Origin: Methanobacteriaceae archaeon
GTDB taxonomy: Archaea; Methanobacteriota; Methanobacteria; Methanobacteriales; Methanobacteriaceae
DNA: 49,224 bases
Direction of reading: 5' to 3'
Assembly: GCA_030539615.1 (NCBI GenBank)
Contig: JAUNXU010000005.1
Location: forward strand, 1 to 49,224
Below, one piece after another: positions 18,578 through 33,581 of this stretch; within the stretch, counting starts at the first letter, position 1, and each line of letters begins with the position of its first letter. The notes under the pieces were generated by a model that was given only the letters and a program-made list of their open reading frames with translations, was not told where the DNA came from and searched no databases. The translations under genes and the position numbers were made by a program.

Positions 18578-19861
18578 ATGACAAATTTACTACTAAAAAA
18601 TTGTAAAATAATACCTGAAAATACAATAGTTGACATACAAATAGAAGACAATAAAATAATAAAAATAAGTAAAACAACCCCTAAAACATTACAAGCAGAT
18701 AAAGTAATAGATCTTAAAGAAAAAATAGTACTACCCGGATTAATAGACACACATGTTCATTTTAGAGATCCTGGACAAACATATAAAGAATCTTGGAAAA
18801 CAGGATCACAATCAGCAGCACATGGGGGATATACAACCGTAATTGACATGCCAAATACCACACCTAATACTAATACTGCAAAAAGATTTAAAGAAAAACA
18901 AGAAATAGCAAATAAAAAAAGTATAATAGATTATGGATTACATGCTGGAATAAACACTTCTAAAGATATAAAAGAATTATCTAAACTAAAACCAGCTTCA
19001 TTTAAAATATTCATGGATTTATATACTGATGATAAATTAAAAGAGTTATTTAAAATTATATCAGATACTGGAAAAATATTAACATTACACTGTGAAGATA
19101 AAGAAATTATAGAACATAGCACAAAAAAACAAAAAGAAGTACAAAATGCCAAACCAATAGCATATACAAAAGCAAGACCTGCTCTTGCTGAAATTATATC
19201 TATTGAAAAAGCAATACAATTTGCTAAAGAAAATAAACAACAATTACATATTTGCCATGTAAGTACTCGAAAATCAGTAGAATTAATTAAAATAGCACAA
19301 AAACAAATTAAAATAACTATGGAAGTAACACCACACCACTTATTTTTAGATAGTACTAGTTATAATACATTTAAAACAAAAGCAAAAACTAATCCTCCAT
19401 TAAGAAGTTTATCAGATAATATTAAACTAGAACAATTAAATGAATTTAATTCAATAGCAACTGATCATGCCCCACATACAATTGAAGAAAAAACAGAAGG
19501 TACTTGGAATAGTGCAGCTGGAATTCCAGGACTTGAAACAACATTACCCTTATTATTAACAGAAGTTAATAAAGGGAATATTAAATTAGATCTTATTCAA
19601 GAAAAATTGTGTGAAAATCCTGCTAAAATATTTAATATACCAAATAAAGGATTTATAAAAGAAGGTTATGATGCAGATCTAATAGTATTAAATATGAAAT
19701 TAGAAGGAAAAATTAATTCTGATAATTTTTATACAAAAGGAAAATATACTCCATTCGAAAAACGAAATTATAAAGGAGATTCTATATTAACTATTCAAAA
19801 AGGTAATATTATAGTTGAAAATAATGAAGTTTATAAAAATAAGGGAAATTATATTTATTAA
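18578..19861 (+). CDS. pyrC: Dihydroorotase (PyrC)
   Basis: A 427-residue amidohydrolase that cyclises N-carbamoyl-aspartate to dihydroorotate in pyrimidine synthesis. The zinc ligands are visible in order: H59 and H61 in DTHVHFRDPG, HCED, HICHVST and the catalytic TDHAPHT. The segment NPPLRS before the last motif is typical of class I dihydroorotases and separates it from hydantoinases or allantoinases. It is a single gene with no other pyrimidine genes nearby. Confidence 0.95.
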   Translation: MTNLLLKNCKIIPENTIVDIQIEDNKIIKISKTTPKTLQADKVIDLKEKIVLPGLIDTHVHFRDPGQTYKESWKTGSQSAAHGGYTTVIDMPNTTPNTNTAKRFKEKQEIANKKSIIDYGLHAGINTSKDIKELSKLKPASFKIFMDLYTDDKLKELFKIISDTGKILTLHCEDKEIIEHSTKKQKEVQNAKPIAYTKARPALAEIISIEKAIQFAKENKQQLHICHVSTRKSVELIKIAQKQIKITMEVTPHHLFLDSTSYNTFKTKAKTNPPLRSLSDNIKLEQLNEFNSIATDHAPHTIEEKTEGTWNSAAGIPGLETTLPLLLTEVNKGNIKLDLIQEKLCENPAKIFNIPNKGFIKEGYDADLIVLNMKLEGKINSDNFYTKGKYTPFEKRNYKGDSILTIQKGNIIVENNEVYKNKGNYIY

Positions 19862-19891
19862 AATATTGTAACAGGGTTTTTTTTTTGAATT

Positions 19892-19911
19892 TATAGTAAT
19901 AACTTACTATA
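19892..19911. terminator. Hairpin between pyrC and the adhesin gene
   Basis: TATAGTAA and TTACTATA form a perfect 8-bp stem with a TAAC loop. A ten-base T run lies just before it (19877-19886). It sits in the 105-bp gap between two convergent genes and probably serves as a shared terminator. Confidence 0.4.
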
Positions 19912-19966
19912 ATATTTCATAAATCTTGTTTCATAATTTAAAAAAAAAGAATAGTGGAAAAAAGAA

Positions 19967-22900
19967 TTAAATTATATTAGTACTATTATCCACTAATAAA
20001 AGTACTTTTGTAGCAGTTGATAAGTCATATTGTTGATATCCAGCATATTTTATGTATACTGTAACATTATTTAGATTTGATGGTACTTTATACACTGTTT
20101 GTACTATACCATTTTGCACCACTAAATTAGTTGCTACTGTTTTATTATTTACTTTTATAACTGCTTTACCTTCATTAATAACATTTCCGTTTTCAGAAGT
20201 AATGTTACCTATGATGATAATTGTATCTCCTTTTACTGCTATTTCAGGACTTATTTTTATACTAGTTGGTGTATGTTTAAGAGTTAATGTGGCATTTACT
20301 CTAGCTTCCCCATAGTTTTCTGATTGTGTAAATACTTTTGTTATTGTATAATCTTTTGTAGCATAATTTTCTGGTATTGTATATCTGTATGTAGCCATAC
20401 CATTTATTACTGTTGCATTTCCTATTGTTTTTCCATTAAGTTTAAATACCACTATTCCTTCATTTATTATTTTATTGTCTTCACTTGTTAGGGTTGCAGT
20501 TATTACTATAGTATCCCCAGGTGTTGCTACTATATGGTCTTTACTAATATTCACACTTGTTTTTGATATAGTTAATATCCCATTTCCAGATGTTGCTTCA
20601 TAATTTCCATTTCCACCAAATACTGCTGTTATTATATAATCTTTTGAGGAGTAATCTGATGGTATGGTATATTCTTTTATAGCCCATCCATTGTTTATAA
20701 TTACTGTTCCATCTAATGTTATCCCATTAATTTTAAATGCTACTTTACCTGTTTGTAATGGATTATCATTTATATCTGTAAAGTATGCTTTTAATATTAC
20801 TGTTTTACCAGCTTTAGATACACTATCAAACACTTCAACTTTTGATCCAATTTTATCAGTTATAGTTAATATTCCCGTATTATTAGATGATTCATAATCA
20901 TTATTCTTAATGTATATTGCAAGTATTGTATAATTTCCACTTGATGTTTCTTCAGGTATTGAATATCTTATTGAAGCTGTACCATTTATTACTATACTTT
21001 GACCTATTGTTTGACCATTTAATTTAAATGATACTTGACCTGTTAAAACAGGATTATTTATTATATCATATACTTCTGCTTTAAATGTAACATTTGTTCC
21101 ACTTAATGCTTCAACTGAATTTACACTAGTATTTGTTTTATAACTGGACACTACTTTAAGTAAAGACTCATTTGAACTTGATTTATAAACTTTGTTTTCA
21201 GTATAATTTGCTATTACTGTATATCCACCTATAGGTTGAGTTATTGTATAATTATATGTAACAGTTCCATTTGTTACATTAATTGTTGCTATTTTTTGAT
21301 TTTCAATAAATAAATCAACAGATCCAGTATTTAATAGATTATTATTTAAATCTGTTACTGTTGCTGTTATTTTTATTGTATCATTTAGTTTTCCTATGTA
21401 ATTATCCATAATTATTTTTGTTTCTATCTTTTCTTGTACAGTAAGTGTTGCATTATTTTGGGAGCTATGATAACGATTATTTTCTCCATAAATTCCAGTT
21501 ATTGTGTAATTTTTTATTGAGTAATTTTGAGGTATAGTATACTTGTATGTGGCCATTCCTTCAATTACTGTAGCATTTCCTATTGTGTTACCATTGATTT
21601 TGAACACCACTATTCCCATATTTACTATTTTAATATCTGATGCTGTTATTAAAGCAGTTATTGTTTTAACATCACCTGTATTTGATATTATGTTACCTAT
21701 GTTTATAGATGTATTTAATTTATCTACAGTTAATATTCCATTACAACTTGTTGCTTCATAATTTCCATTTCCACCAAATACTGCTGTTATTATATAATCT
21801 TTTGAGGAGTAATCTGATGGTATGGTATATTCTTTTATAGCCCATCCATTGTTTATAATTACTATTCCATCTAATGTTACACCATTAATTTTAAATGCTA
21901 CTTTACCTGTTTGTAATAGATTATCATTTATATCTGTGAAATATGCTTTTAATTCAATAGTTTCACCTGCTTTATCAATAATATTAGATATATTTGATTT
22001 AGAAGCTATTTTAGTAGATATTATTAAGATACCTCCCCCAGTAGATGGTTCATAATCCTCATTTCCAACATATTCAACAGTTATATTATGATTTCCACTT
22101 GGTGTTTCTTCAGGTATTGAATATCCTATTAAAGCCACACCATCATTTACTATTGTCGTTCCTATAACATTACCATCTAATTTAAACATTACATTTCCAG
22201 TCATAACCGGATTATTTACAATATCAAATATTAATGCTTTAAAAGTAACATTTGATCCACTTAATGCTTCAAATGAGTTTACAATCGTATTTGTTTCATA
22301 ACTTGTCACTACTTTAAGTAATGCAGTATCAAAATTTGATTTATAAAGACTGTTTCCATTATAATTTGCTCTTAATACATACTCACCTATAGCTTGAGTT
22401 ATTGTATAATCATATATAACAGTTCCATTTATTACATTAATTGTTGCTATTTTTTGATTTTCAATAAATAAATCAACAGATCCAGTATTTAATGGATTAT
22501 TATTTAAATCTGTTACTGTTGCTGTTATTTTTATTGTATCATTTACTTTTCCCACACTATTTTCAATATTTACAATTGTATCTATTTGTTTTTCTATTGT
22601 AAGGTTGGCAATACTTGTTACTCCATAATATAAACTATTTTCTACATATACTCCTGTTAAAGTATATGTTCCTTCAGTATATCCTATTGGTAATGCATAT
22701 TCATAAAGTACCATTCCATCTTGAACTATTAAATCTTTTACTATGGTATTATTATTTAATTTAAATTCAACTTTTCCTGTTGTAACAGGTCTATTACTTT
22801 TATCAATTAAATATAATTCCAATGTTACATTAGTTTCAGGCAATGCTGTAATATTTTTTACCACCATAAATGTTTTTATTTTTCCTTGAATTGTTAGTAT

Positions 22901-25900
22901 TCCAATATTAGTTGATGGATTATTGTATTCATCACCTTCATAATTTACTTTTATTACATGATCTTGTACTTCAAAATTATTTGGTATTTGATAATTTATT
23001 TTTCCAGTTCCATTAACAACTATTGTTTTTCCTACTAAGTTATCATCAATATAAAATACTAAATTTCCACCATTAATTATTTCTTTATTGTTTGTTACTG
23101 TTGCTGTTAAATTTGTATTAGATCCTTGTAATGCTTTAATATCAGAAACGGTTACTTCAGTATTTCTTTTATTTATAGTTAAGTTTATGGTATTATTAGA
23201 TGAAATATATTGATTATTTCCATTATATATAGCTAAAATATCATAATTTCCAAGAGTATAACTTTTAGGTATTGTCCAATTAGTATAAATTGAACCATTT
23301 ATTAAGTTACCATTTCCAATTAATGTATTTCCAATATAGAAATTAACATTTCCAGATGGTATTCCATGATCACTAATTACATTAGCATATAATATAACCG
23401 TATCACCAATAGTACAGTTAATATCTTTAACAAGTACTGTTGAGTCACATTTTCTTAAATCCATTTTAATGTTTATATTAGAATGGAAATATCTTTCATT
23501 GGCTAAATATGATACTTCCACCTCATAAGTTCCCTCTGAATAATTTTCAGGTATAGTCCAATTAAGATTTGCAAAACCATTATTTAACTCATTAATACCA
23601 ATTAACTGTTCACCTATAGCAAAACTAACATTACCATAAGGAACATCAACATTACTGACAACCTGTGCATGTAATACAATATCCTCCCTTAATGTAGCAT
23701 TTATGTTATTACTAAATGTATGTGTAGGTATTTGTAATATAGTTAATATTCCATTACCTGATGACATATTATTATATTTATTTCCAGAATAATCTGCAGT
23801 TATTGTATAATTTCCTGTTTTAAAATTTTCAGGTATATTATATTTTAATTCAGATTTTCCATTGGAAACTGGAGTTATACCCACCAATTCTCCATTTACA
23901 TAAAATGTCATATTTCCATCAATAATTACTACATGTTTATTATTAGTTACTTCCGCCACCAATGTTATATTTCCATCTGGTATTGATTGACTATCAGTTA
24001 CTTGAACTATTGTATCTAATTTTTCAAGATTTAATATTATAGTTGTATTTGATGTTTCATATTCCGAATTTCCATGATACCATATTAATACATTATATGA
24101 TCCTGGAATAAACGATTCAGGTATTATTTCCCATTCAATTCTAGCTACACCATTTACTAACTCACCCACCCCAAGTATATCTTTATTTAATATGAATTCA
24201 ACAGTTCCTGTAGGTATTCCATAAGAACTTGATACCTGAGCAATTAATTCTATAGTCTCCATTATTTTTGCATTAATATTTGGACTAGTAATAGTAGTTG
24301 GTTTTATTTTAACTATTAAATCAGAATTTTCTTCAACTATTATTTTTCCAGATCCATTATACCCTGCAATTAAAGCATAAATTCCTCCAGGAAGATTAAA
24401 TGTATAGTTTATTTTTGCTACTCCATTTGTTACATTTGCAACACCTATTACACGTTCATCAATTTTGAAAATTACAACACCTGTTGTAATATTTTCTCCT
24501 TTATTATTTTGAACTGTTGATTTAACTTCTGCAGTTTCATTTACATATACATCTAAATCATTTATATGAACATGAACTGGCTCTAGTGTTATATTTAATA
24601 TTGCATTACCAGAACTTGATGCATAAAACTCATTTCCGTTATAAAATGCAGTTATAGTATATACTCCAGGAGTTTTAGTTTCAGTATACTTTAATCTAGC
24701 ATATCCTAAGTTATCAAGAGTTACATTTCCTATTTCTTTATTATCAATAAAGAATGTTACTATTCCTTTTACAACAACAAATGCATCACCATTAACTACA
24801 CCAGCTACTAAATATACTTCTTCACCAACATATCTAGTATTTTTTTCAACTGTTGTATATGTAGGATTTTTATTAACAGTTATATTTTTCAAAATACTAT
24901 TTGCATCATAATTAATTGTTTTTGGATATGATACATTGAAAGTATAAACACCAGCAGGTAATTGAACATGGTATAATACATTAGCAATTCCATTTGTTAC
25001 ATTAGCTTCACCAACAATAGTACCATTAACAGAAAGAATTATTACTCCTTCATTAATATTATTACCTTCAGAATCGGTTACTTTTACAGTTATATTTGTT
25101 ATTGTGTTAGCATATACCGATTCAGTTAAAACTACTATAGTAGGTTTTGAAACCATACCTATTTCTTGTGATACATCTGTTAAAACATTTGCTGTTTTTA
25201 TTTTTACAATTTCAAAACTACCAGTTGTAAATGTGAATTTAGATGAACTAAGACCATTTAAAGTTTGATTAATATTAGGATTAATTGTTCCAGCATTATT
25301 AGTTAAAACAAATTCAACATCAACCCCATCAAACATGTGTCCAGATTCATATCTTGGATCAACATTCCATTTTTTTAACCAATTGAAATCAGTTGTAATT
25401 AATTTCATTTTTTCATCAATATCATTTACTGTTAATTTTAAATAAATCCATTCAAATGGTGCATTAAATGGTTCATTTAATATTTCAGTAAAGTTAGGGT
25501 CATTACTTCCCCACCAATTAGTTTCCATCAAAGTAGTACCTAACCCTATATAAATCACATTTTTAGTTAGATTATTATCTAAGAATAATGAATCTTTTAC
25601 TGTTAAATTATCATTATTAAAAATTGCACTACCATTTCCATTATTTTTTACAAAGATAGAATTTGTAATTGTTGCATTACCATTATTATATATTGCTCCA
25701 CCTTGAGTTGCCATATTATTTATAAAAGTTACCTTATTTAAGGTTACATTTGATACACTAACTACTGATTTCTCATTATATATTGCTCCACCATAACCAA
25801 TTTTAGTTTCACTCCTATCAGTTACAGTGTTATTTTCAAATAAGGTATTTTCTATATATGCAATATTATTTTGTCTAAGATCTAATGCTCCTCCAGAACC

Positions 25901-28498
25901 TTTTGCTGTGTTATTTATAAAGTTTGTATTATTTATAATAACATTAGATAACACTTTTTGTCCTTGAATAAATACTGCAGCTCCTGTTTCACCATTATTA
26001 TTTGTTATATTTGAATTATTTATTATTAAATTATCACTTGTAAAAGCTATTGCTCCACCTTTAGCACCTGTAGCTACATTTTTATCAAATACAGTATTTT
26101 CTATAAGAAGTAAAGTTACAATACCTGTTGTATCATAAGTACTTATTGCTCCACCATGTGTTCCAACAGTATTTTCAATAAATTTAGAATTATTTATTTT
26201 AAATTCATCTTTAGCCACATATATTGCCCCACCATATACTCCTGCATAGTTTTTTATAAATATGGTATTATTTACTGTTGTATTACCATGACTATATATT
26301 GCCCCAGCACTAGGTTTTACTGCTTTATTTTCTTCAAAGATGGAATCATAAACTGTTAAATTACATCTATTATTTATTGCTCCACCTGAAGTAGTATCTC
26401 CTGCATTAGATGTTGCTTGGTTATTTGTAAAATTCCCTATTTTTATTATTAAATTACCATTATTATATATTGCTCCCCCACCATAGGTTCCTGTTGCATT
26501 ATTTCCTGCAAATTTAACATTAGTTAATAATACTGAAGAATTTTCAATAGTATATACAGCTCCACCCCATAATGCTTTATTATCTATAAATTCAGAATTT
26601 TCTACTGTGAAGTTAGAACCATATATTGCTCCACCAACTTTAGTTGCAGTATTATTTATAAATCTTGAATTTATAATTGTTAATTTACCATTATTATATA
26701 CTGCCCCACCATATGATGCAATATTATTTGCTATTGTCACATTATTTAAAATTACTTCACCAGTTGGTTTTTCAATTAATATTGCTCCCCCTTGACTTGG
26801 ATCTGTTCCTTTATCAATAATTGTATTATTTTCAAATACTGTATTTTCCACATATACTGCTGCATTTGATGTAATATCTATACATCCACCAGATCTATTT
26901 ATGTAACCATTTATTACTTTTGTATTGTTTATAGTTACATTTGAAAATGCTTTTTCACCTGTAATTAATATTGCAGCACCACTTGCACCAGTAATATTTG
27001 TTATAATTGTATTATCAATTAATAATTGAGATCCAGTAAAAGCTATGGCTCCACCTCGACTACCAGCCCATCCTTGATCAAAAATACAATTATCTATTAT
27101 AAGTGATTTTACTCCACTATTAGATTCATATGTTCCTACTGCACCACCATGTATTTTTGCAGTGTTTTTAGTAAAATTACAATTTGTTATCTTATTTATT
27201 CCAGTACCAGTGTGAACTGCTCCTGAATAATACCCTGATGTATTATTTTCAAAGAGAGTATTATCAATAATTAATTCTTCTCCAAAGAAACATATTGCCC
27301 CACCATTAGGATAATATACTGTATTATTTATGAATTTAGAATTATATATTGTTAAATTACCTTTTAAAATATAAATTGCTCCACCAGATCCACCCCTTGT
27401 ATTTCCAGGCATATTATTAAACTTAAAAATATTATTATCAATAATTATACTTCCACCATTACTATAAATAGCTCCACCACCATAGAAATTACCATTTGAT
27501 GTTCCATTATTATCAGTAAATAAAGTATCGTTTATAATTAAATTTTTACTATTATATATTGCCCCTCCAAGCACTGCTTTATTATCATTGAATGTTAATC
27601 CATCAATAGTTATGTTACCCCTATTAAATATTGCTCCACCACCACCAGTTGATTGAGGTTGAGTTGCATTATTTCCTTTAAATGTACTTTTAGTTATTTG
27701 TAAATTTCCAAGATTATATATTGCACCACCAGATATTGCAATATTATCTTGTAATATAGAATCTATTATTGTTAAATTCCCATTATTATATATTGCACCA
27801 CCACTACTTTGATTTCCTTGAGCAAAAGTTATATTTTTTATGTTTATTGTAAATCCAGAAGTTATTGTTAATATCTGTAATTTATTATTTCCATTAATAA
27901 TTGTATTAGTTGAACTTTCCCCTATTATATTTACAATTTTATTTGTTAAATTAGGATTATTCATATTATTAGTAGATAATGTTGTATAACCATCACCCAT
28001 GACATATGTTCCATTATTAAAATATAATGTGTTAACTGTGTCTGTTAATTCAGTTAATGCTGTTCCTGTTTGAGACCAATAATACGGATTATCTATAGAC
28101 CCAGTACCTGTTGTTCCATTTCCAGGTTGAATATATATCCTATTTTCTAAATTTGCTGTTTTTATATCTACTCTTTTTTGTTCATTTATTTGAGTTTTAT
28201 TTTCTAATTTTATTTCTTTATTTATATCACATTTTTCATTTATATTATCATTTATTTCTATTTGTGAAGCTTGTCCGCCACCTGATTCTACACTACTTTT
28301 TTGATAATTTGTTTCATAGTCATCCATTGCTATTTTAGGTGAACTTTTTGTTTCTATTTCTATTGGTGTTTCAACTGTTGTTTCTGATATTATTGTCTCA
28401 TTGTCGATTTCTGTCACTTGTACTGCATTTATTGTACTAAGTGTTGTAATCAAAAGTAATGTCCCCAGTATAATTAATAGTATATTACTATTTTTCAT
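19967..28498 (-). CDS. Giant adhesin-like surface protein (beta-helix plus 18 Ig-like repeats)
   Basis: A 2843-residue Asn/Thr-rich secreted protein of the methanogen adhesin-like family. Residues 1-26 form a signal peptide ending near INAVQ. A low-complexity segment reaches about 120. From about 125 to 1000 it is a right-handed beta-helix built from GGAIYNNGNLTI-type turns, closed by NWWGSNDPNF near 993. From about 1115 to the end I count 18 Ig-like repeats (Big_3 type) of about 96 residues, most ending with a pattern like YTITAxYxGNxxYxxSxxNxILTI. Repeats 10-13 and 14-17 are a recent tandem duplication. No C-terminal membrane anchor or pseudomurein-binding domain is visible, so retention at the surface must be by another means. 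A GGAGGA ribosome binding site lies before the ATG. Host or cell attachment is inferred, not shown. Confidence 0.9.
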   Translation of the reverse strand: MKNSNILLIILGTLLLITTLSTINAVQVTEIDNETIISETTVETPIEIETKSSPKIAMDDYETNYQKSSVESGGGQASQIEINDNINEKCDINKEIKLENKTQINEQKRVDIKTANLENRIYIQPGNGTTGTGSIDNPYYWSQTGTALTELTDTVNTLYFNNGTYVMGDGYTTLSTNNMNNPNLTNKIVNIIGESSTNTIINGNNKLQILTITSGFTINIKNITFAQGNQSSGGAIYNNGNLTIIDSILQDNIAISGGAIYNLGNLQITKSTFKGNNATQPQSTGGGGAIFNRGNITIDGLTFNDNKAVLGGAIYNSKNLIINDTLFTDNNGTSNGNFYGGGAIYSNGGSIIIDNNIFKFNNMPGNTRGGSGGAIYILKGNLTIYNSKFINNTVYYPNGGAICFFGEELIIDNTLFENNTSGYYSGAVHTGTGINKITNCNFTKNTAKIHGGAVGTYESNSGVKSLIIDNCIFDQGWAGSRGGAIAFTGSQLLIDNTIITNITGASGAAILITGEKAFSNVTINNTKVINGYINRSGGCIDITSNAAVYVENTVFENNTIIDKGTDPSQGGAILIEKPTGEVILNNVTIANNIASYGGAVYNNGKLTIINSRFINNTATKVGGAIYGSNFTVENSEFIDNKALWGGAVYTIENSSVLLTNVKFAGNNATGTYGGGAIYNNGNLIIKIGNFTNNQATSNAGDTTSGGAINNRCNLTVYDSIFEENKAVKPSAGAIYSHGNTTVNNTIFIKNYAGVYGGAIYVAKDEFKINNSKFIENTVGTHGGAISTYDTTGIVTLLLIENTVFDKNVATGAKGGAIAFTSDNLIINNSNITNNNGETGAAVFIQGQKVLSNVIINNTNFINNTAKGSGGALDLRQNNIAYIENTLFENNTVTDRSETKIGYGGAIYNEKSVVSVSNVTLNKVTFINNMATQGGAIYNNGNATITNSIFVKNNGNGSAIFNNDNLTVKDSLFLDNNLTKNVIYIGLGTTLMETNWWGSNDPNFTEILNEPFNAPFEWIYLKLTVNDIDEKMKLITTDFNWLKKWNVDPRYESGHMFDGVDVEFVLTNNAGTINPNINQTLNGLSSSKFTFTTGSFEIVKIKTANVLTDVSQEIGMVSKPTIVVLTESVYANTITNITVKVTDSEGNNINEGVIILSVNGTIVGEANVTNGIANVLYHVQLPAGVYTFNVSYPKTINYDANSILKNITVNKNPTYTTVEKNTRYVGEEVYLVAGVVNGDAFVVVKGIVTFFIDNKEIGNVTLDNLGYARLKYTETKTPGVYTITAFYNGNEFYASSSGNAILNITLEPVHVHINDLDVYVNETAEVKSTVQNNKGENITTGVVIFKIDERVIGVANVTNGVAKINYTFNLPGGIYALIAGYNGSGKIIVEENSDLIVKIKPTTITSPNINAKIMETIELIAQVSSSYGIPTGTVEFILNKDILGVGELVNGVARIEWEIIPESFIPGSYNVLIWYHGNSEYETSNTTIILNLEKLDTIVQVTDSQSIPDGNITLVAEVTNNKHVVIIDGNMTFYVNGELVGITPVSNGKSELKYNIPENFKTGNYTITADYSGNKYNNMSSGNGILTILQIPTHTFSNNINATLREDIVLHAQVVSNVDVPYGNVSFAIGEQLIGINELNNGFANLNWTIPENYSEGTYEVEVSYLANERYFHSNINIKMDLRKCDSTVLVKDINCTIGDTVILYANVISDHGIPSGNVNFYIGNTLIGNGNLINGSIYTNWTIPKSYTLGNYDILAIYNGNNQYISSNNTINLTINKRNTEVTVSDIKALQGSNTNLTATVTNNKEIINGGNLVFYIDDNLVGKTIVVNGTGKINYQIPNNFEVQDHVIKVNYEGDEYNNPSTNIGILTIQGKIKTFMVVKNITALPETNVTLELYLIDKSNRPVTTGKVEFKLNNNTIVKDLIVQDGMVLYEYALPIGYTEGTYTLTGVYVENSLYYGVTSIANLTIEKQIDTIVNIENSVGKVNDTIKITATVTDLNNNPLNTGSVDLFIENQKIATINVINGTVIYDYTITQAIGEYVLRANYNGNSLYKSNFDTALLKVVTSYETNTIVNSFEALSGSNVTFKALIFDIVNNPVMTGNVMFKLDGNVIGTTIVNDGVALIGYSIPEETPSGNHNITVEYVGNEDYEPSTGGGILIISTKIASKSNISNIIDKAGETIELKAYFTDINDNLLQTGKVAFKINGVTLDGIVIINNGWAIKEYTIPSDYSSKDYIITAVFGGNGNYEATSCNGILTVDKLNTSINIGNIISNTGDVKTITALITASDIKIVNMGIVVFKINGNTIGNATVIEGMATYKYTIPQNYSIKNYTITGIYGENNRYHSSQNNATLTVQEKIETKIIMDNYIGKLNDTIKITATVTDLNNNLLNTGSVDLFIENQKIATINVTNGTVTYNYTITQPIGGYTVIANYTENKVYKSSSNESLLKVVSSYKTNTSVNSVEALSGTNVTFKAEVYDIINNPVLTGQVSFKLNGQTIGQSIVINGTASIRYSIPEETSSGNYTILAIYIKNNDYESSNNTGILTITDKIGSKVEVFDSVSKAGKTVILKAYFTDINDNPLQTGKVAFKINGITLDGTVIINNGWAIKEYTIPSDYSSKDYIITAVFGGNGNYEATSGNGILTISKTSVNISKDHIVATPGDTIVITATLTSEDNKIINEGIVVFKLNGKTIGNATVINGMATYRYTIPENYATKDYTITKVFTQSENYGEARVNATLTLKHTPTSIKISPEIAVKGDTIIIIGNITSENGNVINEGKAVIKVNNKTVATNLVVQNGIVQTVYKVPSNLNNVTVYIKYAGYQQYDLSTATKVLLLVDNSTNII
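20284..22598. repeat. Tandem duplication, period 1158 bp, inside the adhesin gene
   Basis: Two consecutive units of 1158 bp (386 codons, four Ig-like domains) align without a gap. Exact matches include 115 bases at 20591-20705 and 21749-21863, and the stretch beginning TTGTTGCTATTTTTTGATTT at 21283 and 22441. All are offset by 1158. The outer limits are approximate. The length is a multiple of three, so gain or loss of a unit keeps the frame. Confidence 0.85.
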
Positions 28499-28624
28499 AC
28501 AAGGATTCCTCCTTTAATTTAAGTTTTTTTATTTTGGTGCTTCTAAAATAAAGAAAAAGAAGAAAGTTTAATTTAAATTAAGAAATTTATTTATTGATTA
28601 ATAATTTTTTAGAGCATTATTAAA

Positions 28625-28648
28625 AGATAGTTTCAGATCTAACTATCT
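28625..28648. promoter_or_regulatory. Inverted repeat upstream of the adhesin gene
   Basis: AGATAGTT and AACTATCT are perfect 8-bp arms around TCAGATCT, which itself contains the palindrome AGATCT. It lies about 125 bp before the adhesin ATG, in the probable promoter or leader region, and could be an operator or a leader hairpin. Confidence 0.35.
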
Positions 28649-29262
28649 AAATAAACTTCTTTAAACAACATGAGCGATATGACTTTTTTTTCTTTATTGT
28701 TATATTATTGATAAAAACTAATAATTAAAGGTAGTTTAAAATTTAGAATTTTTCATCTATTTTTTGTAGAACTTTTAAAAAGTTAAAATTCATTCAAAAA
28801 AAAATTTATTAAAATAGCATTTTTAGGAGAAAATATATATAATAAGTTTTTATATAAGTATTAGTGTTTTTTATTTTTTAATTTATTCATTGTAAAAAAG
28901 AGTTTACATTACTTATTTTATTATAATTATATTTTATAGAATAGATATGATTTTTTTGGAGATTAAATTTTAGTTTAAAGAAAAAATAAAGGAATATTTT
29001 GATGATTCCTTTTTCATAGCACTATATTAAGATATGATAAATAAGAAATAATTTTTTTAATCATCTGTAAAAAGAAAATTTTGATAATGTAGAAAGTCTT
29101 ACTTATCAGGATAATAATCAGCGCCTTAATTATTAAATGCGATATAGTAGACCATGAGTTTCTTACTTATCTTTTTCTTTTTTTTATGTGATTTTTTTAT
29201 TATTCCTTATTTATTTTTCTCTTATTATAGGTTGTTTTTTTCTATATATCGATTGTAGTTAT
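28649..29262. other. Long intergenic region between the mcr operon end and the adhesin promoter
   Basis: I see no gene of convincing length on either strand. The right part (about 29090-29180) is less AT-biased than its surroundings and carries an 11-base direct repeat TCTTACTTATC at 29097-29107 and 29161-29171. TAATAAT and ATTATTA at about 29111-29134 could pair. This part is transcribed past by the mcr operon unless it terminates before, so it may be a 3' untranslated region or a small RNA. A TATA-like run for leftward transcription lies near 28833-28858. Confidence 0.3.
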
Positions 29263-30918
29263 TTATAATGCTGGGTTTATAAGATCTCTTTCACCGCTAG
29301 GCATAAATTCTCTTATTGCACCTTTTGCTATGGATTTTCTTGGTGCAGTCCAGTCGAATAATAGGTTTTTGTCAGCAAATGCAACTTTTATTAGAGGGTT
29401 TGTACAGAATGCATCTCCTCTTGCTGCGTGTGGTGCTTGTGCAATACCTGCATATTCAGGTTGGTGACCTACGTTCATTGCATAGTTAGGGTAGTTAGGT
29501 CCTCTTAGTTCGTGAATAAGTCCTTCATCACTTCTTATTGAAAGTGAGTTAGATGATCCACATTGATCTTGAAGATCGTAACCATAGAATCCTAATCTGC
29601 TGTGTCCTTCTTTATGTAATAATTGGCTTAAGTACCATCCGTTTACTCCTGCATTTGAGTTTCCAGTTGCAAATGCACAGGAACATCCTGATGCTGCTGC
29701 TGCAACTGCTGCTCTTTGAGATCCACCAAAGTGGTCTTCAAGTAATGCTGGGGTTTCGTATTGTTCTAATGAGTATAAAGTTACTTCATTTGCAATATCT
29801 TTTACTACATCTGAGGATAAGTCTGCTTTACAAATTCCGTATTTGTTGTCCACATAATCTTTTCCGTAGTATACGAAGTCATCTAAGATTTCATCTGTGT
29901 ATGCTGCTGTTGCATATTGTGTAAATCCTACTCCACCTGACATGTATGAACCTAACCATACTTGGTCGTATAATGGTGATGCTGCTCCGATTACTTCTAA
30001 TGTTGATTTTACAGGGTCGTCAGTTACTCTGGAAGTTTGTACCATATCTGCAAATGCTCCAAACATTACTCCTCCAGGTTCATTAGGACCTCTTGCTCTT
30101 CTTGATGGCATTGCATTAGCCATTGAGATTACATCTGCGTGTTTTGCTGCGTATGAGAAATCAGCAATTGCTGCTTCTCCAGCACATAATTTGTATGCTG
30201 AAATGAAACTCATTCCAATCTGCATTGCAGACCATCTTGAAGTTGTTCCACCATCACATGCTCTTACAACTAATGTTGGTACACGACTTACTTGGTATGT
30301 TTTTTTACCTATGTATTTTTTAAGCATTGCTGCTTGATCTTCAGGGAACTCTTTGTTGATGTCTATTACAAATCTTTGATCTAATTGATCAAGTAAATCA
30401 TCGTCTCCGGTGAATATTTTTGCGTATGAATCAGCTACAAGTCCCGGATCAACTTCTACCATGTGTTCTTGTACAACTGCTCCTCCTGGGAGTGCGTGGT
30501 TGATTGTTTCCATGTATTCGTTGATTGTTTCTGGGGTTACTTCTACACCAAGTCTTTGTTCAAGTACTCCGTGAGCTGTATCCATTCCTACAATAACTGT
30601 TCTTTTAATATCATCAACTAATTGTTGAATTGCTGAATTATTACAGAAGTGAAGGTCGTCTCCTTCTACATATGTGTCGGTTCCAGATACTTGGTATGCC
30701 ATTAATTTTCTTTGTCCTAGTGGTACACCTACATCTGGATTATAAAATGGTAATCCTCCACGTTCTTCTTCTGCTTTTTCAGCTGCTTTCATAAATTCTT
30801 TTTTACGTGGTGATTGTTCCCATCCACCGTAGCAGTAATATTTTGTATGTTCTTCAGATGGATCTTCATCAAATTTTTCTTTTAATGCTTTTAAGAACAA
30901 TTTTTTCTCATTATCCAT
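29263..30918 (-). CDS. mcrA: Methyl-coenzyme M reductase alpha subunit (isoenzyme II-like)
   Basis: The catalytic subunit of the methane-forming enzyme, 551 residues. The F430 axial-ligand glutamine is in AVVQEHMVE. The stretches that carry methyl-His and methyl-Arg (YAAKHADV and [11 protein letters not shown]) are present. [12 protein letters not shown] (443-454) holds the thioglycine (G446) and S-methylcysteine (C453) positions, one higher than Methanothermobacter numbering, and the active-site [14 protein letters not shown] is intact. Sequence style and the operon order B-D-G-A without C suggest the mrt (MCR II) type. It is the last gene of the operon and its start overlaps the end of mcrG by one base. 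Expression should be very high. Confidence 0.98.
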
Positions 30919-31715
30919 TAGTTATCACCTAATTTACTTTTTAAATCGTCGTTGAATACTTCTAATCCATATCCTCCGTCGGTTCTTGCAGCGTGAATTT
31001 CGGATACTACTTCTATTACTTCTTCATCGTCTTTAAGACTGATGTTATCAAATCTGTAGATTGTAGTCATATTTTTAAGTTCTTCTTCTGCTATTGGTTC
31101 TCCTACATCAATTACTTCATCGAGTGGTCTTCCAATTTGGTCTTTTACATATTTTACGTGACCTGATTCTTCATCAAAGACGTATCTTTGTAAAGCATCG
31201 AACATAAGTCCGTTTTCATCTAATCTTAGGGAGTGTCCGTGTACTGTTGCTCCTCTTAGACCAGTTTTTGCTGTATCGAATAATTCGGATTCTATTAATG
31301 TTTTAGACATTTCTTCAAGGTCAGATTCTCTCATTTCTACTACTTGTCTTCCTGAGAGTGTACCTGTGTCTACACCTCTGTATCTTCTCATGTATGTTCT
31401 TGCTCTGTCATATGGATGAGCAGGTGCATTATACATTGAATCTGCGAATTGAACGTATCTTATACGTATTCCTTTTTTTGCTCCGTCGAGTGGTTCAACA
31501 AAGTCTTTTACTGCATCTTCTTCAAAGTCCATTTCATCAAGAGGTGGGTGTACTGTTTTGTAACCTTCCCCAGGAGTTCTGTGACTTAATAGTTTTACTA
31601 TATCATCATCTGCAATATTTCTCATTGTTTTAAGTTCATAATCCGGGTTCATGTGTTTTTTACGGTTTTCCGCAATTACAGAAGACCCAGGATAAAATTG
31701 TGCTTCATATGCCAT
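30918..31715 (-). CDS. mcrG: Methyl-coenzyme M reductase gamma subunit
   Basis: A 265-residue structural subunit of the (alpha-beta-gamma)2 enzyme that helps form the F430 channel. The N-terminus [21 protein letters not shown] and the stretches [17 protein letters not shown] and [23 protein letters not shown] are characteristic. It sits seven bases after mcrD and touches mcrA by one base. Length is normal for the family. Confidence 0.98.
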
Positions 31716-31721
31716 TTTTAA

Positions 31722-32231
31722 TCACCTAATATATTTTACAGTTTCGGATGATTTTGTTGTTGGATCTACTAAACCAATTACTCTTGAATCTACTTTATCT
31801 TCAAATCCTTCACCGTATTTCATATAATCTGTTACGGATGTTGCGGATTTTGTAAAGATTCCGACAGATACATCATAATTAAAATTTAATGTTTCTTCCA
31901 AAATTTCTTCTGTTTTTTCAACAAAATCTTCTAGATTATCTAAATTTACTGTTAAAATTATTTCACCTACAGACACAAGTAATTGCACTTCTTCATTCTT
32001 TATTTTGATAGATTTTCTATCTGAATGATTTGTAGGTAATCCTTTTGCAGGACCCATTGATACTAGTTTTGGCAATGATTCACCATTTACTAATACTCTT
32101 AATACTCCATCTAAAGCTAGAATTTCATTTAATATTTTTTCTGTAGTTTCTGGCTTAAGTATTCTTTCAGGAAATATTTTTACATCAGTTGCTTTTATTA
32201 CATTTGTTTCATCTGTAGTATTATTTGTCAT
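31722..32231 (-). CDS. mcrD: Methyl-coenzyme M reductase operon protein D
   Basis: A 169-residue accessory protein that is not part of the mature enzyme. McrD binds MCR during assembly and is thought to help with cofactor F430 delivery or maturation. The core VKIFPERILKPETTEKILNE and LVSMGPAKGLPTNHSDRK stretches identify it. It follows mcrB by 18 bp. Confidence 0.95.
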   Translation of the reverse strand: MTNNTTDETNVIKATDVKIFPERILKPETTEKILNEILALDGVLRVLVNGESLPKLVSMGPAKGLPTNHSDRKSIKIKNEEVQLLVSVGEIILTVNLDNLEDFVEKTEEILEETLNFNYDVSVGIFTKSATSVTDYMKYGEGFEDKVDSRVIGLVDPTTKSSETVKYIR

Positions 32232-32249
32232 AATTTTTTAACGTCCCAT

Positions 32250-33581
32250 TTAGATTTTATCTTTTATTTGACTAGCTCCTTCTGCAACGTATTTAATTGG
32301 TTCTCTTAAATTATCAACGTCACCGTATACTGCTCCTACTAATGAGGATGTTTTTTCTACAGAGAACATTTGTGTTCCTGCATCAAGGGACATTGCTGCT
32401 GCGTTACATGGTATAGCATATCCTTTACTATGTCTTGTTACTACGTGGTTTCCGTGGAATGCTCCAGGACCTCCTCCACCATAGATACCGTGTGAGAAGA
32501 AACTCATTCCTACACCAGTACCCATTACTTTACCGAAGTCTACTCCAGGTAATCCTGTTTCGTATTCGATAATATCGTTGAAGTATAAGATTGATGAAGC
32601 AATACCTTGTGCTGCTCTAGCAGCTCCAACGTTTACTATTACTGCAGTTACAAGTCCTGCTGCTGCATATGCATTCCATAAAGCCCAGTCAACTGGTTCA
32701 TATACTTTGTATCCAGAAGGTAATGTTTGTTTTACTCTGATTACACCATCATCTAATGCACGTTCAACTGTAGAGTTTACTACGTCTCCAAGGGTTCCTT
32801 TACCGTTTTCTTTTATTAAATCATATACCATATTGTTTGCATTTAAACCTTGGTATGCTAAACCTAATAAATGAGCCCGTTCAAAAGCACCTACTGCATC
32901 CCCCATTTCAAATGTTGCGGTTTGTTCAAGTATTGATGAAAGAGCCACAGCATTTAAAGTGTTTTTCTTAGTGATTGCTACAACGTGGTTTGCACTTATG
33001 TTTCTTAATCCGTATCCTAAACCTTCTAACATTACAGGTGGTCCTAATAATGTTGCCATATTAGCCCCAGCAAAGTTTACTGTTTGTGGGTATGATCCCA
33101 TAACTGCTGTTTTTACTGCTGATGCATCAAATTTGTTTACATCAAAAGTATCTAATATAGCTTGAACGATAGCTCCTCCGACTACTAGTGGTGCAACTGT
33201 ATAATCTGCTGCTACATCTACTCTTGTTTGTGGTAGTTGTACTAATAATTGTTTTCCACCGTTGATGGATCTGGATAAGTAATTATCGTCTGCACTTACT
33301 TGAATCATTTTTTGCATTTTTTCTGCAATTAATTCTGCATTATCGACAATATCTAATTTTAATTCTCTTCCTGGAATAAAATTAGCTTTTCCTCCATAAG
33401 CACCATTTGCTAATGCTTTTTCTATTCCTGCAAAGTTTACAGCAACAGAACGCTTAACTTCTTGTATAATATTTTTAATTGTTGGGTTTAACATTGGACT
33501 TACTGCTTCTAGTGGAACATTTTCATCTAAAAGTTTTCCATCCACCCCATACAGATCTATTCTATCTTCATATGTTGGCAT
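32250..33581 (-). CDS. mcrB: Methyl-coenzyme M reductase beta subunit
   Basis: The 443-residue beta subunit, first gene of the operon. Beta residues contribute to the coenzyme B binding channel; the C-terminal [20 protein letters not shown] contains the phenylalanine-rich active-site stretch. The N-terminus is [25 protein letters not shown] ribosome binding site is 9 bp before the ATG. No mcrC lies between mcrD and mcrG, as in mrt operons of related methanogens. Confidence 0.98.

Follow-up and report, generated by a model that had tools for sequence, protein, structure and literature searches.

A mosaic in-frame tandem duplication of four Ig-like domains in a giant archaeal adhesin-like protein

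The window analyzed here is a 49,224-nucleotide stretch of DNA that makes up an entire contig (C53) of genome G000, a 1.8-Mb assembly in 139 contigs that is 94% complete. Its GC content is 27.6%, and its source is very likely a relative of Methanosphaera, a gut-type methanogen, in keeping with its methanogen genes and low GC. A gene for a giant adhesin-like protein lies between methyl-coenzyme M reductase genes upstream and a convergent amidohydrolase gene downstream (Table 1). The reductase operon reads B-D-G-A and has no C gene, the arrangement of the mrt isoenzyme in other methanogens, and a single match to mcrA was found in G000. The amidohydrolase gene and mcrA are direct convergent neighbors, without an adhesin gene between them, in all 10 relatives that show both genes. 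The contigs of six further relatives stop shortly past the amidohydrolase gene and hence have no bearing on the locus, and the G002 assembly, chosen to compare the locus with that of a closer relative, was uninformative, since neither mcrA nor the nucleotidyltransferase had a match in it. In the present genome, the 8.5-kb adhesin gene splits the pair (positions 19862 to 29262). As none of the 10 relatives carries an adhesin gene at the locus, gain in the present lineage is more likely than loss in the others. Searched for repeats and for a mobile element, the ends of the adhesin gene yielded A/T-rich inverted repeats only.

Table 1. Coordinates of the features discussed (positions in the window)
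Feature	Coordinates	Strand	Basis
Methyl-coenzyme M reductase genes, mcr/mrt-type (B, D, G, A), upstream neighbor	29263..33581	-	
Amidohydrolase, convergent downstream neighbor	18578..19861	+	
Giant adhesin-like protein, 2843 aa	19967..28498	-	ORF, Pfam, and domain table
Copy 1 of the unit, Ig domains D10-D13, aa 1970-2355	21434..22591	-	Exact-run search, domain table, AlphaFold2 model
Copy 2 of the unit, Ig domains D14-D17, aa 2356-2740	20279..21433	-	Exact-run search, domain table
Tract A, copy 1 (D10, codons 1983-2038), all third positions as in copy 2	22385..22552	-	Codon comparison
Tract A, copy 2 (D14)	21227..21394	-	Codon comparison
Tract C, copy 1 (D12, codons 2207-2251), contains identical run 21749-21863	21746..21880	-	Exact-run search, codon comparison
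Tract C, copy 2 (D16), contains identical run 20591-20705	20588..20722	-	Exact-run search, codon comparison

The N terminus of the adhesin (MKNSNILLIILGTLLLITTLSTINA) is hydrophobic, compatible with a membrane anchor or a cleaved signal, and is adjoined by a right-handed beta-helix with Chlam_PMP/POMP repeats, which is followed by 18 Ig-like Big_3_5 domains. Pfam placed Beta_helix and Chlam_PMP matches in the N-terminal half and returned 18 Big_3_5 stretches. No C-terminal anchor was seen in the protein, of which the Ig array forms the end. An AlphaFold2 model of D10 to D13, built on a four-sequence alignment, predicts beta-strand Ig-like domains with a mean pLDDT of 92 but a pTM of 0.59, so that the single domains are modeled with confidence and their mutual placement is not. 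A fold search of the PDB gave merely generic tandem Ig matches (e.g., titin and complement proteins) with low TM-scores. When an orthologue of the adhesin was sought in relatives, the best matches were just 36 to 38% identical, and the duplication described below therefore cannot be dated on a tree.

Domains D10 to D13 occur again as D14 to D17, offset by 1158 bases (386 codons). This is a real in-frame tandem duplication of whole Ig domains, as the initial annotation had proposed. In per-domain comparisons, D10 to D13 pair with D14 to D17 and with no other domain: the DNA identities of D10/D14, D11/D15, D12/D16, and D13/D17 are 85, 74, 85, and 64%, respectively (69, 61, 80, and 53% in protein), against about 40 to 62% in DNA for the remaining domain pairs of the adhesin. 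The 115-base identical run reported earlier (20591 to 20705 and 21749 to 21863) is exact and ends where it was said to end, and further exact runs at the 1158-base spacing measure 62, 51, 36, 23, and 19 bases. Exact runs at other spacings within the gene reach at most 24 bases, in its beta-helix part. Sameness of the copies is confined to patches: large parts of the two units are as little as 60 to 65% identical, and 258 of 1152 aligned bases differ. The spacing is steady over D10 to D12 but slips by one codon where D13/D17 begins. Protein identity over the whole unit is only 66%, and the duplication is therefore old rather than fresh.

Contig ends elsewhere in G000 overlap by exactly 55 bases (two comparable cases), which suggests a short-read de Bruijn graph assembly with a k of 55. 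The exact repeats of 115 and 62 bases are both longer than this, as would suit an assembly artefact in which units were misjoined or more than two copies were collapsed to two. Such an artefact is unlikely to account for the duplication, however, as the 258 differences and the intact frame mean that two distinct copies must exist. In an assembly of this kind, two copies of the unit are a minimum, since extra identical copies could be collapsed. In addition, de Bruijn assemblers can flatten a few differences in tracts longer than k, so that low divergence is better secured than perfect identity in the 115-base run.

Divergence between the copies forms a mosaic. Third codon positions show no differences across the 56 codons of tract A and the 45 codons of tract C (Table 1), whereas 96 of the 290 third positions outside these tracts differ (33%). 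The Ks between copy 1 and copy 2 is 0 over codons 1984 to 2033, 0.08 over codons 2215 to 2256, and 0.75 to 1.3 over codons 2257 to 2353 (parts of D13/D17). In permutation tests, which treat codons as independent, the longest run and the variance of third-position differences were unmatched in 20,000 permutations (p<5e-5), and the longest synonymously identical codon tract had a p of 0.0001. The conserved parts encode regular Ig strands in the AlphaFold2 model, as would be expected had a single duplication been followed by purifying selection on some parts and by no later exchange. Selection on the protein nevertheless leaves unexplained why third positions are wholly unchanged over 56 and 45 codons when about 33 to 50% of them differ in adjoining segments, and this explanation is highly improbable. 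Furthermore, the tracts occupy different places within their domains (about residues 14 to 69 of D10 and 46 to 90 of D12), so that no single shared structural constraint explains them.

The segments might also have arrived as cassettes from other adhesin genes rather than from the partner unit, and potential donors are plentiful, with at least 150 matches to Big_3_5 in G000. No third gene that could have donated the tracts was found in the genus or in G000, although a donor is possible in the missing part of this 94%-complete genome. The best match to tract C outside the two copies is 71 to 74% identical (genus), and the best matches to the whole unit in G000 itself reach 74 to 79% in stretches of >100 bases. 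Moreover, all exact runs of more than 24 bases in the adhesin gene share the 1158-base spacing, which also argues against cassette exchange and makes it very unlikely.

The simplest account of the mosaic is that the copies recombined with each other once they had diverged, and we consider it likely that an old four-domain duplication was later overwritten patchwise by recombination between its copies. The duplication, its frame, and its mosaic character are observed, and we infer the mechanism and the order of events. D10 to D13 would have been duplicated in tandem and in frame within the Ig-like stalk long ago, and same-register recombination between the copies would then have overwritten at least two patches (A, in D10/D14, and C, in D12/D16), through either gene conversion or the gain of a third unit and the subsequent loss of one. 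The outcome would be near-identical patches A and C in an otherwise diverged pair. Both routes leave one footprint, and the mosaic is thus a sign of pairing between copies and not of a change in unit number. The recombination between copies put forward in the initial annotation is plausible and has left visible traces in the form of past exchange, while the gain or loss of units is not something that the mosaic demonstrates.

Comparable repeats are present in other adhesins of G000, including one-domain in-frame tandem repeats of 288 bases (94-base identical run) and 285 bases (74-base run), two-domain repeats of 582 bases (74-base run) and 591 bases (53-base run), and a three-domain repeat of 819 bases. 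In a relative of the same genus, adhesin L102 repeats at 597 bases and contains an identical run of 599 bases. Many adhesin repeats in relatives are equally patchy, and further adhesins of the genus contain repeats that are likewise mosaic and in frame and give similar statistics. The impression that the present case stands out was not supported, as other adhesins of the genome and genus are alike and some have longer identical runs. The duplication is real, yet ordinary for the adhesin family and the genus, and D10 to D17 are one case of a process across the adhesin-like proteins (ALPs) of the genus. A literature search on repeat turnover in archaeal adhesins found nothing specific.

L116 (G004 C4:113000-130000) encodes a 3521-aa adhesin with higher-order repeats of 1134 bases; its repeat spacings of 1134, 1701, 2268, and 2835 bases, each divisible by 567, extend along about 4 kb. 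Three adhesin-like genes of G000 (L136, L137, and L138, on C26, C32, and C137) are 87 to 90% identical over about 3 kb; two of them lie on contigs with a 55-base end overlap and are probably neighbors, and one ends in a motif resembling a papain-type peptidase. L100, L139, L140, and L141 (G000 C13, C5, C131, and C76) make up another subfamily of adhesins, whose Ig repeat measures 315 bases and reaches up to about 90% identity within and between genes.

Adhesin length was compared in ten complete orthologous pairs from two sister-species pairs, with one genome per species; nine pairs differ by no more than 13 codons and one differs by 467 codons. In the latter, the G008 and G018 adhesins (L122 8279-16921 and L123) measure 2881 and 2414 aa, an in-frame difference of 1401 bp that falls at 843- and 1404-base tandem repeats of the longer copy, and most of the remainder aligns at 96.7 to 97.9%. 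This pair and the past recombination between copies are consistent with a further reading, compatible with patchwise overwriting, in which the copies still recombine and strains differ in how many four-domain units they carry, altering the reach of the protein in the manner of Periscope Proteins. The shorter G018 adhesin, however, comes from a fragmented draft of 200 contigs in which repeats may be collapsed, nine of the ten pairs are nearly equal in length, and the units of the present adhesin are merely 66% identical in protein. In addition, if the N terminus anchors the protein, the Ig array is distal, and a change in unit number would not lift an N-terminal head. Continuing change of this kind in the present adhesin is therefore possible but doubtful.

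In the two human gut methanogens studied, ALPs occupy >10% of the genome (PMC11532034). Little is known about how they evolve. The adhesin gene, taken alone, is an ordinary example. Together with the 467-codon difference between sister species in another adhesin, its mosaic suggests a turnover of domain blocks through in-frame recombination, which, if it also holds among strains, would offer methanogens a means of varying their surface.

Periscope Proteins (Whelan et al. 2021, PMC8201768; reviewed in PMC9704523) and the adhesin are both surface proteins with tandem folded domains, in which DNA similarity between repeats permits in-frame change of unit number by recombination. Periscope Proteins are bacterial, have demonstrated strain-level length variation, and carry an N-terminal head on a stalk of variable length, whereas the adhesin is archaeal and its Ig array is C-terminal. 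The stalk would not project an N-terminal head here, as the array is terminal and the beta-helix lies by the N-terminal hydrophobic segment. Periscope Proteins were selected at a cutoff of ≥80% repeat identity (PMC8201768), which only D12/D16 reaches in the adhesin; with whole units below this cutoff, rapid change in copy number is less probable than one would judge from the 115-bp run by itself. Tentatively, Methanosphaera ALPs may be an archaeal counterpart of Periscope Proteins, in which blocks of one or several Ig domains are gained, lost, and overwritten in frame through recombination often enough to produce length differences between strains, with the present adhesin as one example.

The adhesin is also close to the ALPs that make up subgroup IA in Methanosphaera stadtmanae and Methanobrevibacter smithii (Gupta and Seedorf 2024, PMC11532034), whose architecture of a beta-helix followed by Ig-like repeats it has. 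As far as the accessible portion of that paper goes, it describes ALP repeats and domain number but not a mosaic within a gene. Both have an N-terminal hydrophobic segment (in the subgroup a membrane-anchoring helix), a right-handed beta-helix, and Ig-like "archaeal big domain" repeats in variable number. Both are also Asn/Thr-rich and lack a C-terminal anchor, and nothing essential differs between the adhesin and the subgroup.
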